From the IMG/VR virus record IMGVR_UViG_3300009164_000144, positions 1-42,526 of that record: a stretch of 42,526 nucleotides of DNA; one strand, 5' to 3'. The notes beneath the pieces are model-generated. The model did no database searches. It saw only the letters and a list, made by a program, of their open reading frames with translations, and had not been told where the DNA came from. The DNA is from a virus. Both the position numbers and the translations under genes were made by a program. Of the stretch, positions 27,081 through 41,285 are shown piece by piece (the stretch's first letter is position 1; each line of letters begins with the position of its first letter).

Positions 27081-27081
<1 letters not shown>
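26497..27081 (-). CDS. Virion-associated beta-sandwich-like protein
   Basis: A 194-residue Gly/Thr/Ser-rich protein without membrane segments, starting MPKMHHHALWNGAAGIASIP. The sequence alternates beta strands (WLVATYTFTDGRDLDTRT, TLIIDFRCFWYGSIG, RITLVTQSGSSNGTG), pointing to a jelly-roll or sandwich fold such as a fibre tip or lectin-like cap. The ATG overlaps the stop of the big collagen-like gene by one base (TAATG), so it may be the C-terminal partner or cap for that fibre. The exact family is not recognised. Confidence 0.75.
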
Positions 27082-30623
<3,542 letters not shown>

Positions 30624-31357: not shown

Positions 31358-31381
31358 AAAAGGTAACCTAAGTTACCTTTT
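31358..31381 (-). terminator. Intrinsic terminator of the porin gene
   Basis: A 10-bp perfect stem AAAAGGTAAC / GTTACCTTTT with a 4-nt loop, followed on the - strand by CTTTTGA. It is 23 nt past the porin stop codon. Confidence 0.8.
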
Positions 31382-31403: not shown

Positions 31404-32285
31404 TCAGAAATTGTGTTCCATTCCTAAACCAAATTTGGTTGTTGTAGATGCTGTATCTTCCTTGACATAACGAGCATGAATCATAGTACGCTTGCTTAGG
31501 TTATAAGTAGCACCCAGGTCATAAGCCTTAGCACCAGATTTTTCACCATAGCTAGCAAGAGCCACAAATGAACCTACTGGATGACTAACACCAATTGTTT
31601 TACCAGTTGATGTTACGCCTACAACTTTGTCATCTGAGTATAAACCAAATACGGTAGTACCTGTTTTAGCAATGCTATATCTTGCACCAGCAATGGTTGT
31701 GGTGCTTGTCGTACCGTTATCAAAATATGCTACAGTAGCAGCCATTGAACCGCGAATGAATTCAATACTACCTGCTTGTGCATTAGTAACACCTGCTGCT
31801 TCGCTGTTGCTATTTTGATAGTTAACAGACAAACCAGGCATGACTGTTGCAGAAACAAACAGTGCATTTTGTAAACGTGAACCTTGAGCAGTATGGATAG
31901 TAGTTACACTAGAGCCATATACATTAGCCATTGCGTCATAGTTATCAAGTGTACGTGCAATAGCATGTTTATCACGGCCAAGACTAACTGAACCCATGGC
32001 ATTTGATACACCTACTAGAGCAGTTCTATCACCTAGTGTAGTTGCTGCTGGAGCATCTGTGCCAATACCAGTTTCGATTGTAAAGTTAGCAGATAGTCCG
32101 CCACTTAGTGCTTCAGTGCCTTTGAATCCCAAACGGCTTGAATCGTTGGTTAATGCTGTCACTGCGTCTGCAGATCCGACTTTAGTTGATTCTTCGTAGA
32201 CCCGTAGTTTACCGTAAACGGTGACCTGTGCGGATGCTACAACTGATGCAGCGGCTATCATTGCCGCAATTGCGATTTTCTTCAT
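31404..32285 (-). CDS. Gram-negative porin (Burkholderiales type), phage-borne
   Basis: Read from the ATG at 32285 (MKKIAIAAMIAAASVVASAQ), with AAAAGGA upstream, it has 293 residues: a Sec signal peptide cleaved after ASA, then QVTVYGKLRVYEES, the standard first strand of betaproteobacterial trimeric porins. SSRLGFKGTEALSGGLSANF and VGVSNAMGSVSLGRDKHAI are the family's signature strands, and it ends MEHNF with the C-terminal Phe needed for Bam-dependent insertion. It is shorter than typical cellular porins (340-390 residues), probably through shortened loops. It is framed by its own promoter-like boxes and a terminator, flanked by phage genes. Likely acquired from a Burkholderiales-like host. 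Confidence 0.88.
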   Translation of the reverse strand: MKKIAIAAMIAAASVVASAQVTVYGKLRVYEESTKVGSADAVTALTNDSSRLGFKGTEALSGGLSANFTIETGIGTDAPAATTLGDRTALVGVSNAMGSVSLGRDKHAIARTLDNYDAMANVYGSSVTTIHTAQGSRLQNALFVSATVMPGLSVNYQNSNSEAAGVTNAQAGSIEFIRGSMAATVAYFDNGTTSTTTIAGARYSIAKTGTTVFGLYSDDKVVGVTSTGKTIGVSHPVGSFVALASYGEKSGAKAYDLGATYNLSKRTMIHARYVKEDTASTTTKFGLGMEHNF

Positions 32286-32308
32286 ATTTAATTTCCTTTT
32301 GTTAATCA

Positions 32309-32326
32309 ATCTTGCGGATGCAAGAT
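32309..32326 (-). promoter_or_regulatory. Leader hairpin in the porin 5' region
   Basis: ATCTTGC and GCAAGAT form a 7-bp stem with a GGAT loop, 24 nt before the porin start. It may be a transcript-stabilising or regulatory stem; no known riboswitch fold is recognised. Confidence 0.4.
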
Positions 32327-32335
32327 CTTAAGCAC

Positions 32336-32364
32336 ATTTTACTGTACTAGTAGTATTTAAGCAA
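32336..32364 (-). promoter_or_regulatory. Candidate sigma-70 promoter of the porin gene
   Basis: On the - strand: TTGCTT (32359-32364), 17 nt, TAAAAT (32336-32341) in the 132-nt gap between the porin and the upstream gene. Matches are moderate in AT-rich DNA, so this is tentative. Confidence 0.4.
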
Positions 32365-38168: not shown

Positions 38169-38777
38169 ATGTCTATACTGGAAACACTGCGTCAACAGCG
38201 ATGGGACGATCATCGCTACTATCACCATAGTCGTATTAATCAATTCTTACACTTAATCAGTGCTCTATCATTTATAGTAGCCTACATTTATTTGTTTATA
38301 GATCCTGTTGTGAGTGCTTATATAGCATGGTTAATTTCCATGACTACACGTCAAGCAGGTCATTTCTTTTTTGAACCCAAAGATTACGACACTTATAATC
38401 AGGCTACACAAGATCATAAAGAAGCCATTAAAATTGGATATAATCTTAAACGAAAAAGAGTATTGATTGCTTGTTGGTTAGCAGTTCCGTTGCTAGCATA
38501 TTTTGATGCAGCATTGTTTAACTTTGTCATGCCAGATGCTGCGCCGGACACATTATTAGATAGAATTGGTTGGGGATGGTTATGGTTAGGACTGGCCGCT
38601 GTTGTGTTTCGTATGATACAACTTACTGCTATACAAAGTCGCCGTGTCGCATTGGTATGGTGTATTAAGATATTAACAGATCCATTCCACGATGCAATTA
38701 TATATCGCAAGAGTCCTATATATTTAATGCAGGGACAATTGATTGATCCTGATCTAAGACAAGACTACGAAGATTAG
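38169..38777 (+). CDS. Polytopic membrane protein, possibly host-derived
   Basis: A 202-residue protein with about four hydrophobic segments (roughly 30-50, 53-60, 97-115 and 132-152). The N-terminal third carries clustered histidines and asparagine (RYYHHSRINQFLHL) and then RQAGHFFFEPKDYDTYNQAT. The H...N...H and GH-FFE arrangement faintly recalls Mpo1-like (DUF962) dioxygenases and other His-box membrane enzymes of lipid metabolism, but I cannot assign it. The text reads like a cellular membrane protein rather than a typical phage one. It ends tail-to-tail with the agt gene (4-base overlap), next to lipid-remodelling genes, so a membrane-lipid role would make sense. Confidence 0.82.
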   Translation: MSILETLRQQRWDDHRYYHHSRINQFLHLISALSFIVAYIYLFIDPVVSAYIAWLISMTTRQAGHFFFEPKDYDTYNQATQDHKEAIKIGYNLKRKRVLIACWLAVPLLAYFDAALFNFVMPDAAPDTLLDRIGWGWLWLGLAAVVFRMIQLTAIQSRRVALVWCIKILTDPFHDAIIYRKSPIYLMQGQLIDPDLRQDYED

Positions 38778-39778
38778 AGTGGGGTAAGATTGTCTCGGAA
38801 TATATTCCAGGCATTATCCCAACTCCAACGTTGGCTACCTTGTAGTACTACGTCTCTGTTCAATCCCAAACAGCGATGCACAGCAGTGGCAAGGTCTTGG
38901 TCCGTGAATCCAGTAACACCCTGATCAACTACATCCAATGGACCTTGAACTGGGTAAGCAGCAACTGGTGTGCCGCATGCCATAGCTTCAATCATTACAA
39001 TGCCGAATGTTTCCCACTTGCTAGGGAACACAAAGACATCGGCCATCGCATAATATTTTGCTAATTCTTTACCAGTTTTAAATCCTACAAACTCTACATC
39101 AGGATATAACTTTTCTAATCTAGCACGGTCAGGTCCATCACCTACTAGTATTTTAGTAGCGTTAGGATAATCTAAACTACAAAAAACATCTAAGTTCTTT
39201 TCTGGACTTACTCTACAAACGCAAAGTAGTATTGGACCATTAACTACAGTATCGGTTCTATAACTAGGATTGAATATATCTCTATCAACACCGCGTGTCC
39301 ATGATTTGATATCTCCCCAGAATCCGTTATCTTTAAGTTCTTTGACCATACTATCAGTAGTGGTCAATACACGACCACTATGTTTATGAAACCAACGAAC
39401 GTACTTCCAAGTAATAGATTCAGGAATACCTAAAACGTTTTTCAACCCCTCAGGAAATTTAGTATGGTAAGCAGTATTGTACCTACGATGGTGCCGGTCA
39501 AGATAAAATCTAGCGTACAGACCAAGAGGACCTTCTGTGGCGATATGTATATAATCCGGAGCCACCTTCCTAATCTTTTTCCCAATTTGCCAGGGAGCCG
39601 AAATTTTAATCTCACGGTAGCCTGGGCAACTAACATGTAAGAACTCCAGGGGAGTAAGGAATACAACATTATAACCGTCCAGAATCGCACGTGCCTGAAT
39701 ATTCTTATACGTAGTGACAACGCCATTTATTTGCTCCGGTAAATTATCAGTAATGATTAAGATTGTTTTTTTGTACAT
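38774..39778 (-). CDS. agt: Diacylglycerol glycosyltransferase Agt-like (GT4), phosphate-starvation lipid remodelling
   Basis: A 334-residue GT-B glycosyltransferase. It begins KKTILIITDNLPEQINGVVT (the N-terminal fold with NGVV at 18-21). HIATEGPLGLYARFY and YHTKFPEG are the acceptor-side motifs, CRVSPEKNLDVF (188-199) is the linker motif, and FPSKWETFGIVMIEAMACG carries the donor-site E-x7-E pair at Glu256 and Glu264. The whole pattern matches Agt of alphaproteobacteria, which makes mono-glucosyl or glucuronosyl diacylglycerol when phosphate is scarce. Neighbour plcP supplies diacylglycerol. Sugar donor cannot be read. Start has AGAAGG five bases upstream. Not a usual phage gene; likely taken from a bacterium. 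Confidence 0.83.
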   Translation of the reverse strand: MYKKTILIITDNLPEQINGVVTTYKNIQARAILDGYNVVFLTPLEFLHVSCPGYREIKISAPWQIGKKIRKVAPDYIHIATEGPLGLYARFYLDRHHRRYNTAYHTKFPEGLKNVLGIPESITWKYVRWFHKHSGRVLTTTDSMVKELKDNGFWGDIKSWTRGVDRDIFNPSYRTDTVVNGPILLCVCRVSPEKNLDVFCSLDYPNATKILVGDGPDRARLEKLYPDVEFVGFKTGKELAKYYAMADVFVFPSKWETFGIVMIEAMACGTPVAAYPVQGPLDVVDQGVTGFTDQDLATAVHRCLGLNRDVVLQGSQRWSWDNAWNIFRDNLTPL

Positions 39779-39909
39779 ACACCTTCTACTTTAAAATTTT
39801 TAAACTTTAATTCAAACTTCATTGATCCTAGGGCTACCTCGCAACTTATTTTATCTTTAAATTCAAGCTCTATCCTACCCGGTTGATCAGCGGGATTGTT
39901 TATGTGCAT
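39757..39909 (-). CDS. Possible 50-residue gene bridging plcP and agt
   Basis: An ATG at 39909 opens a 50-codon frame ending in TAA at 39757-39759. It overlaps the plcP end by 23 bases and the agt start by 22, filling the 108-nt gap exactly as coupled phage genes do. The peptide (MHINNPADQPGRIELEFKDK, then CEVALGSMKFELKFKNFKVE) alternates hydrophobic and charged residues like a small beta protein. No ribosome-binding site is evident and no family is recognised; it could be chance. Confidence 0.4.
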   Translation of the reverse strand: MHINNPADQPGRIELEFKDKISCEVALGSMKFELKFKNFKVEGVCTKKQS

Positions 39910-40681
39910 GGCTATTAGTATTAGAGTCCACATTATCGTTTTCCTGTGTCCAAGTTATTATTTCCCACTTACCATCGTGATGTTCTACTAGTGCTGTACA
40001 ACTTTCAACCCAGTCACCATCATTCATATAAGTGATGCCATCTATTTCTTTAATCTCAGCATGATGTATATGCCCGCATATTACGCCATCATACCCTCTC
40101 TTCTTACAGTAGTTAGCAAGATTATGTTCAAAGTGAAAAATAAAATCGACAGCTTTTTTAACGCGATGTTTTAAATATTGACTCAGACTAAAATAACCAA
40201 AACCTAATTTATGTCTTACCCAGTTAAATCTGGTATTCCAAATTAAAATAATATCATAGGCAGTGTCACCTAAGAATGCTATCCATGGAGCCAAGCGGGT
40301 TATCCCATCAAACATATCCCCATGCACTACAAGATAGTGTTTGCCATCAGCACCTATATGTTCTATTTGATTGTGTATCTCAACGAGTCCAAAACTGAAC
40401 CCATATGGTATCATCGGGCGCAAGAATTCGTCATGATTTCCTGCAATATAAACGACACGAGTACCACGTTTAGCATGACCGAGAACACGACGGACCACAT
40501 TAGTGTGGCTCTGTTTCCATCTCCATTTGTTTTGTTGGATTCTCCAGGCATCAATTATGTCTCCTACAAGGTATAAAGTGTCGCTGGAATTGTGCTTGAG
40601 AAAATTATTGAGTTGATCTGCCTTAGAATCCCTGGTACCGAGGTGAACATCGCTGACGAAGATAGATCGGTATGTCTTCAT
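39887..40681 (-). CDS. plcP: PlcP-like phospholipase C (metallophosphatase), phosphate-starvation lipid remodelling
   Basis: A 264-residue calcineurin-like metallophosphoesterase related to LpxH-type UDP-diacylglucosamine hydrolases. Metal ligands are intact: SDVHLGTRDS (Asp11, His13), VGDIIDAW (Asp41), AGNHDEFLRP (Asn82, His83), VVHGDMFD (His120) and ICGHIHHAEI (His204, His206). The C-terminal MNDGDWVESCTALVEHHDGK is the signature of the PlcP group, which removes the headgroup from phosphatidylcholine, -ethanolamine or -glycerol under phosphate starvation, leaving diacylglycerol. LpxH proper lacks that section. It is the first gene of the plcP-agt pair; a Pho-box-like element lies 33-50 nt upstream. 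Ribosome-binding site weak (GGTAA or TTGG). Confidence 0.83.
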   Translation of the reverse strand: MKTYRSIFVSDVHLGTRDSKADQLNNFLKHNSSDTLYLVGDIIDAWRIQQNKWRWKQSHTNVVRRVLGHAKRGTRVVYIAGNHDEFLRPMIPYGFSFGLVEIHNQIEHIGADGKHYLVVHGDMFDGITRLAPWIAFLGDTAYDIILIWNTRFNWVRHKLGFGYFSLSQYLKHRVKKAVDFIFHFEHNLANYCKKRGYDGVICGHIHHAEIKEIDGITYMNDGDWVESCTALVEHHDGKWEIITWTQENDNVDSNTNSHAHKQSR

Positions 40682-40759: not shown

Positions 40760-41046
40760 GCTATTTTTGGTGACAAGGTATAACTACCTCGGGTCTAGCA
40801 ATCAAGCGGCTAGTAAAACTGCTGAGTCATTAGCGGCTTGACGTCCAAAACGGAAGTTTTTGCCCATAGTAACTTTTACAGTACCTGTTGTATTTGCGTT
40901 TGCATTTACGGATTTTGCGTCTGCAACCAAGCTTCGTCTTTCTATGCTATGAGCATAGCGACTAAAGTTACCTTAGTCCTGCGGCTTCTGCATTGCCGAG
41001 CTGTCCACTCATTTACTTGTTGCTCTGTCGAAACCAGGGCAGGCCC
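40760..41046 (-). ncRNA. ssrA: Permuted tmRNA, coding (mRNA-like) piece
   Basis: The 5' half of a tmRNA, encoded downstream of its own 3' half. It begins at 41046 with GGGCCTG, which pairs fully (one G-U) with the 3' acceptor strand CAGGTCC at 41210-41216. It then has CCCTGGTTTCGACAGAG, matching the conserved CTGGATTCGAC of the tmRNA 5' end. Downstream are hairpin/pseudoknot-like segments (GACTAAGG / CTTTAGTC and CTATGC / GCATAG), a tag reading frame ending in LAA before TGA (40802-40804), and a final helix. A segment ATAGCAA at about 40761-40767 can pair with TTGCTGT in the acceptor piece, as expected for two-piece tmRNA. The 3' end is approximate. Confidence 0.85.
40802..40903 (-). other. 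tmRNA proteolysis-tag reading frame
   Basis: From GCA at 40903 (context GTAAAT-GCAAACG, like the E. coli GCAAACG resume codon) 33 codons run to TGA at 40802-40804. The tag would start ANANTTGTVKV, contain NFRFGRQAANDS, and end AVLLAA. The last ten codons alone (40805-40834, ANDSAVLLAA) mimic the classical 10-residue AND...LAA tag, so the resume codon could also be there. Confidence 0.6.
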
Positions 41047-41059
41047 ATCAAAAAGAAAC

Positions 41060-41194
41060 TTACCATTTACCAATTGGACAATGTGCAAATGGTATTAAAG
41101 TTTTAGCCGGCATGTAACATCCGCACTTGTTGCAAACTTTTCGATCAGTATCAAAATGCTCACATACTATACAAATTGTGTACTTGTCGTTCAT
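41060..41194 (-). CDS. 44-residue Cys-rich protein inside the tmRNA intervening segment
   Basis: A complete gene between the two tmRNA pieces: AAAAAGGA starts right after the acceptor CCA, the ATG is at 41194, and TAA (41060-41062) ends 13 nt before the coding piece. The protein MNDKYTICIVCEHF, then VCNKCGCYMPAKTLI, ending FAHCPIGKW, has six Cys and two His arranged as C-x2-C ... C-x2-C-x-C ... C, a likely zinc ribbon. The C-terminal CP-x-x-KW ending occurs in small Cys-rich proteins of T4-like phages; function unknown. To be translated it must be read from the tmRNA precursor or from the excised spacer. Confidence 0.82.
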   Translation of the reverse strand: MNDKYTICIVCEHFDTDRKVCNKCGCYMPAKTLIPFAHCPIGKW

Positions 41195-41205
41195 GAATTC
41201 CTTTT

Positions 41206-41285
41206 TGGTGGACCTGGCGGGAGTCGAACCCGCGTCCAGAACACTTTTCTCTTTGCTTCATACAGCAATAACTTTTATTTATCTC
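41206..41285 (-). ncRNA. ssrA: Permuted tmRNA, acceptor piece (3' half)
   Basis: On the - strand this ends ...GTTCTGGACGCGGG, the T-arm GCGGGTTCGACTCCCGC (41217-41233), CAGGTCC (41210-41216), discriminator A and CCA (41206-41208). It matches the 3' end of E. coli tmRNA (GTTCGGACGCGGGTTC, CTCCCGCCAG, CCACCA) almost base for base. Upstream, TTGCTGT can pair with the coding piece. Because the 5' half lies downstream rather than upstream, the gene is circularly permuted, as in alphaproteobacteria, some betaproteobacteria and cyanobacteria. The 5' boundary is estimated; the preceding gene's stop codon is at 41290. Confidence 0.9.

Follow-up and report, generated by a model that had tools for sequence, protein, structure and literature searches.

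A conserved porin lineage with trimmed surface loops carried by large phages

A porin gene present on a viral contig was found to be real, conserved and phage adapted, a finding larger than that first stated: genes of this type are carried by about 99 viral contigs in all and form a porin lineage that has, so far, been found only in phages. The window, i.e., the whole stretch of 42,526 nucleotides that was analysed (positions 1 to 42,526 of IMG/VR virus record IMGVR_UViG_3300009164_000144), contains T4-like genes (clamp loader, PhoH and tail-fibre assembly), among which are several collagen-like tail fibres. The reading that we favour, with a little better than an even chance, is that the gene encodes an anion-uptake porin of the Omp32/PorB kind that is made late, has become adapted to phages and results from an old betaproteobacterial acquisition. 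Features of the window are given in Table 1.

Table 1. Features of the window, with positions counted from its first letter
Feature	Position	Strand	Remark
Collagen-like tail fibre, downstream of porin	27081..30623	-	
Terminator-like hairpin after porin	31358..31381	-	
Porin CDS, 293 aa, Porin_4/Omp32-like, 16 strands	31404..32285	-	ATG at 32285
R137 codon	31875..31877	-	aligned with Omp32 R133
Constriction loop L3, residues 107-136	31878..31967	-	AlphaFold2 secondary structure; clade-1 variability below strands
R87 codon	32025..32027	-	aligned with Omp32 R75
R51 codon	32133..32135	-	aligned with Omp32 R38
Signal peptide, residues 1-19	32229..32285	-	sequence reading; low-confidence helix in model
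Porin leader element	32308..32327	-	z -3.6 for leader segment
T4-late-promoter-like motif TTAAATACTA	32351..32360	-	loose match to TATAAATA
Mpo1-like membrane protein	38169..38777	+	Pfam match below cut-off
GT4 glycosyltransferase (agt-like)	38774..39778	-	88% identical to L005 copy near porin and plcP
PlcP-like metallophosphoesterase	39887..40681	-	88% identical to copy in L004 porin-pstS-plcP cassette

Identity, spread and descent of the porin

The first-pass annotation had described a Burkholderiales-type porin, with a signal peptide and a terminal Phe, on a phage. Pfam matched the window protein to Porin_4 (PF13609) with E=7.8e-27 and 95.3 bits against a cut-off of 27, covering positions 2-305 of the 310 in the profile, and this match, the presence of the gene on ~99 viral contigs and the tree described below all agree with that description. 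Direct reading of the sequence revealed both a signal peptide (MKKIAIAAMIAAASVVASA, followed by Q) and a final Phe, the latter residue being present in 9/9 rows of a first alignment and 35/35 rows of a wider one. As regards the OprP/OprO family of phosphate-specific porins, Pfam reported Porin_4 alone, although a family not listed could still match. The NCBIfam equivalog for PorB gave 47 bits with the window porin against a cut-off of 480.

An independent contig of 34.9 kb (L002; relatives are designated by L numbers) encoded a porin with 99% identity followed by the same genes. A profile scan found 83 viral contigs with the porin (80 listed), and another 19, including contigs of 352 and 524 kb, came from a scan based on clade-2 rows; hence, the concern that the gene might occur in a single misassembled contig was not borne out. 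The phage porins were uniform, with 289 to 307 aa, an MKK start and a C-terminal Phe (one member was cut short), and were surrounded by genes that we take, mainly from sequence motifs, to encode ribonucleotide reductase, glutaredoxin, PAAR, MoxR/VWA and tail-fibre proteins. PHROGs contained no family for the window porin and a tblastn search of 50,697 catalogued phages detected no relative of it, while a clade-2 porin had one partial match among catalogued phages. This absence from PHROGs and from catalogued phages indicates that the family has so far been overlooked by annotation.

In a tree built from 35 phage rows and 52 cellular ones, a branch with an SH-aLRT support of 100 had the phage rows on one side; the cellular rows were the nearest found, such that a sister in unsampled bacteria is possible. 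Phylogeny had been proposed as a means of naming the host lineage; the tree yielded a separate phage branch but left the host genus unnamed. With a profile of the 35 phage porins, phage members scored 375 to 413 bits and the best cellular porin, from a search of 401 genomes in the family to which Limnohabitans belongs, scored 122.6 bits. Searches of 399 genomes of the order and 369 of the class with the phage-porin profile, which were performed without an internal positive control but with a profile that does detect phage records, gave no cellular match at 1e-36. A cellular sister group was sought; a first genome scan produced no candidate and a wider scan produced only porins of ~26 to 33% full-length identity. 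A mixed profile of phage and cellular rows was dropped, these rows being too diverse for scanning.

All of the nearest cellular porins were from Burkholderiales or other Betaproteobacteria. A betaproteobacterial tmRNA match in the window overlapped a match to Rfam RF04321 but was weaker and below its cut-off. Several relatives had a permuted tmRNA close to the porin, ANDELFALAA being one of the tags, and ANDELYSLAA was among the tags of permuted tmRNAs on related porin-bearing contigs. The tmRNA evidence and the affinities of the porin make a betaproteobacterial host likely, and the carriers of this gene are large, T4-like phages, probably of Betaproteobacteria. The RF04321 match itself (88 bits; window positions 40802-41267, minus strand) is a permuted two-piece tmRNA located beside the plcP-like gene; in L006, a permuted tmRNA is present ~100 bp upstream of the porin. 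A separate observation was made in a 352-kb contig (L051:3464-3538), where ARAGORN detected a tRNA-Pyl with a cta anticodon, a candidate amber suppressor, beside a permuted tmRNA.

Predicted barrel, eyelet and surface loops

An AlphaFold2 model of the monomer, for which 86 porins of phages and cells were aligned, had a pLDDT of 90.8 and a pTM of 0.85. As expected for a porin of this type, the barrel consisted of 16 strands when residues 42-47 and 51-59 were counted as one bulged strand, and L3 (30 residues, with two short helices) folded inward. Foldseek and VIA-align both identified Omp32 of Delftia (Comamonas) acidovorans (PDB 1e54/2fgq) as the top solved fold (Z of 30.6; 1.8 A over 270 residues), followed by BpsOmp38 of Burkholderia pseudomallei (VIA Z of about 29) and Neisseria PorB (PDB 4aui and 3a2s; Z of about 28.6). 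Omp32 and BpsOmp38 share the 16-strand barrel, the inward L3, the C-terminal Phe and an arginine cluster with the window porin, which differs in having about 25% identity, short extracellular loops and a phage location; it is also ~57 residues shorter than Omp32 and has an Asp in place of Omp32 K74. PorB, the best PDB match by sequence profile (E=2.6e-17), shares the Porin_4 fold but is cellular and has longer surface loops.

Three arginines of the window porin, R51, R87 and R137, align with the Omp32 cluster. All three were retained in 14/14 clade-1 porins, while in clade 2 R87 was present in 20/21 and R137 in 21/21 members and R51 was replaced by Asn in 10/21. The net charge of clade-1 porins was about neutral, and selectivity would, therefore, rest on the eyelet alone. 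A modelling paper on porins describes a basic cluster together with a strand-3 glutamate as the usual anion pathway (PMC3723809), and E71 of the window porin is probably this glutamate. The anion selectivity mentioned in the first-pass annotation is thus backed by homology, and the window porin would be expected to prefer anions and to assemble as a trimer.

The same annotation had put the protein at about 50 to 90 residues shorter than its cellular relatives. This estimate held in comparison to Omp32 and BpsOmp38 (330 to 343 ordered residues versus 274 here) but was overstated for the nearest cellular relatives, for which the median barrel length was 316.5 residues, with a minimum of 284, compared to a median of 274.5 for the phage porins. 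Alignment located the shortening in surface loops L5 to L8, which had at most about half as many residues as their cellular counterparts: L4 to L8 had 10, 4, 2, 3 and 6 residues in phages and 13, 9, 4, 10 and 15.5 in cells. Periplasmic turns were equal, and L3 and L2 were of similar size (L3, 30 residues in phages versus 33 in cells; L2, 16 versus 15).

Variability was also distributed differently. In clade 1, L2 and L3 varied less than the strands (entropy of 0.86 for L3 versus 1.03 for strands), whereas in cellular porins L3 and L4 to L8 varied most (2.93 for L3 versus 2.06 for strands). Values of dN/dS among phage porins ranged from 0.07 to 0.27 (14 pairs), indicative of purifying selection. 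In combination with the constraint on L2 and L3 in clade 1, these values indicate that selection acts on the pore and not on the surface. Short loops at the surface would suit receptor hiding or a block of superinfection, and would suit plain economy too.

Expression signals and gene neighbourhood

The leader of the porin gene, i.e., the stretch from the start of the CDS up to position 32364, was inspected for expression signals. The motif TATAAATA, given for a T4 late promoter (PMC3014915), was present in exact form upstream of the porin in 9/78 loci. A looser form, [ACT]TAAATA[CT]T, was detected upstream in 42/78 loci (17/35 when nonredundant) compared to 1.06% of random stretches, and for a slightly longer motif just upstream of genes 40/54 matches preceded the porin and the others preceded tail-fibre-like genes. 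This enrichment is consistent with the earlier supposition of late expression, and we infer that the porin is probably made late in infection. Some porin leaders had a TTGAC-TATAAT-like spacing instead; upstream of the window porin, a sigma-70-like site was no better than chance. A leader hairpin (energy of ≤ -3) was predicted in 34/35 nonredundant members with a mean z of -1.7, the sequence differing between members and the place being similar. No Pho box stood out upstream of the porin, the best matches being like those from stretches drawn at random from these loci.

Porin and phosphate genes are linked in some of the lineages. The porin was followed by pstS with gaps of 84 to 114 bp in L004, L009, L015-L018 and L045-L047, and by plcP in L006, L044, L052, L071 and L081; in L004, L009 and L045-L047, porin, pstS, plcP and a glycosyltransferase gene succeed one another on a single strand. 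The PstS of these cassettes matched an NCBIfam equivalog (E=7.8e-129). The name PlcP is our assumption, drawn from family resemblance, library names being LpxH-like and below cut-off. An Mpo1-like protein was encoded near the porin or plcP in L005 and L044-L047, as well as in the window. Among 81 sources searched, 15 had PlcP and 13 had PstS. Large porin contigs carried pstS in 8/26 cases, adjacent to the porin in five (three lineages) and ~20 kb away in three, although the 18/26 without pstS may be fragments. The porin was within 5 kb of plcP in only 5/80 phage plcP loci, and plcP as a strict partner of the porin was rejected, plcP being far commoner than the porin in phages. The phosphate link is, therefore, not general, as pstS is present in only 8/26 large contigs and most plcP loci lack the porin. 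Hence, the phosphate theme proposed for the window porin and plcP-agt stood in part: relatives have pstS and/or plcP and a glycosyltransferase gene directly after the porin, but no Pho box was found and plcP-agt in the window itself lies ~6.5 kb from the porin.

Several further observations concern these neighbours. The pair of PlcP-like and glycosyltransferase genes is widespread in IMG/VR phage contigs, with at least 598 plcP stretches; a GT2 was present in 69/80 plcP loci (L192-L271), and the pair also occurs at L004:10085-11543. Pelagibacter phage Mosig encodes a PlcP-like protein with 46% identity. Both porin and plcP are carried by a single viral contig of 524,565 bases (IMGVR_UViG_3300027749_002876; L285 and L252). 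A small cytochrome c gene (L009:7564-7872) lies just upstream of a porin-pstS-plcP cassette. Other phages had different transport genes. In clade 2, L073 (3358-5913) encodes an SDF-type Na:dicarboxylate symporter, together with an Asp/Glu racemase, just upstream of the porin, and both are also encoded near it in L059-L063.

Proposed role in infection

According to the favoured reading, the gene would have been acquired from a betaproteobacterium long ago and would have evolved within phages since. It would be transcribed by the phage, from a late-type promoter in many members, and the Sec signal peptide and terminal Phe suggest that host Sec and BAM machinery would export the product. The resulting trimeric outer-membrane porin would act as an extra small-solute pore for the infected cell. 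Its basic eyelet would favour small anions, above all phosphate and, in other phages, probably dicarboxylates, and it would keep phosphate and other small anions entering the dying cell, to the presumed benefit of the phage. As the pore alone would be needed, the surface loops could be trimmed. In several relatives, phosphate would pass from the porin in the outer membrane to PstS for periplasmic capture, while PlcP and the glycosyltransferase would release phosphate from phospholipids, glycolipids being substituted. The broader proposal, to which we assign slightly less than an even chance, is that large lytic phages own a loop-trimmed anion-porin lineage, installed late, which forms with PstS, PlcP and the glycosyltransferase a phage-encoded phosphate route that starts at the outer membrane and reaches the phospholipid store.

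An unspecific phage pore, replacing general permeability after synthesis of host porins stops, would give phosphate no special place. The absence of pstS from most porin contigs and the widely varying gene contexts would suit such a pore, as would contigs of up to 524 kb, for which long infections are plausible; retention of the arginine cluster and the fact that adjoining transport genes, where present, serve anions make it unlikely. Lambdoid phage porins (Lc/NmpC) interfere with adsorption, and a porin with surface loops too short for binding might similarly flood the outer membrane and dilute host porins used by other phages as receptors, thereby masking receptors or excluding superinfection. 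The cutting of L5 to L8 with retention of L3 and the periplasmic turns is in keeping with this, as are the tail-fibre genes that the window and several clade-2 contigs have near the porin. The short loops of clade 1 were, however, barely more variable than the strands (entropy of 1.11 versus 1.03), and hence lacked the signature of an arms race, the PstS and symporter neighbours suggest uptake, and a late porin would postdate most superinfection, so that we regard this explanation, too, as rather improbable. Disturbance of the outer membrane by the porin, which would aid lysis or trigger a late envelope response, would fit the late-type promoter motif but is very unlikely given the conserved eyelet, the strong purifying selection on the pore and the lack of a recurrent, recognised lysis gene near the porin, the cell-wall hydrolase gene adjoining it in L003 being confined to one member. 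Burkholderiales porins are frequent in genomes, but the idea that a cellular fragment was misjoined to phage contigs, or that the gene is a passenger acquired recently, is already refuted by the spread over ~99 contigs, the single phage-only branch, the neighbourhood repeated in an independent assembly and the bit-score gap to cellular porins.

Most of the known phage auxiliary genes for nutrient uptake work in the periplasm or in the cytoplasm. Cyanophage pstS encodes a phage-borne phosphate-binding protein under host PhoB control, and differs from the porins described here, upstream of which no Pho box was found. Uncultured phage porins A0A6J5L4P1 and A0A6J5LP82 (each 17% identical to the window porin) and A0A8S5S2G8 (11% identical) have similar porin-type barrel folds and are without a described clade or context. 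In the literature covered, which excluded preprints and most subscription journals, the only precedent for a phage-encoded porin was viral ompL, which adjoins glnK-amtB in marine viral contigs and was traced to Flavobacteriales and ammonium (PMC8115048). This likewise is a porin gene beside a nutrient-uptake gene on a viral contig, the porin substrate being unstated there, whereas the window lineage points to betaproteobacterial porins and phosphate. A phage-specific outer-membrane pore, if true, would mean that large phages remodel the first barrier of the host too, and the trimming of loops around a conserved eyelet provides a natural test case for the minimal transport needs of a porin.
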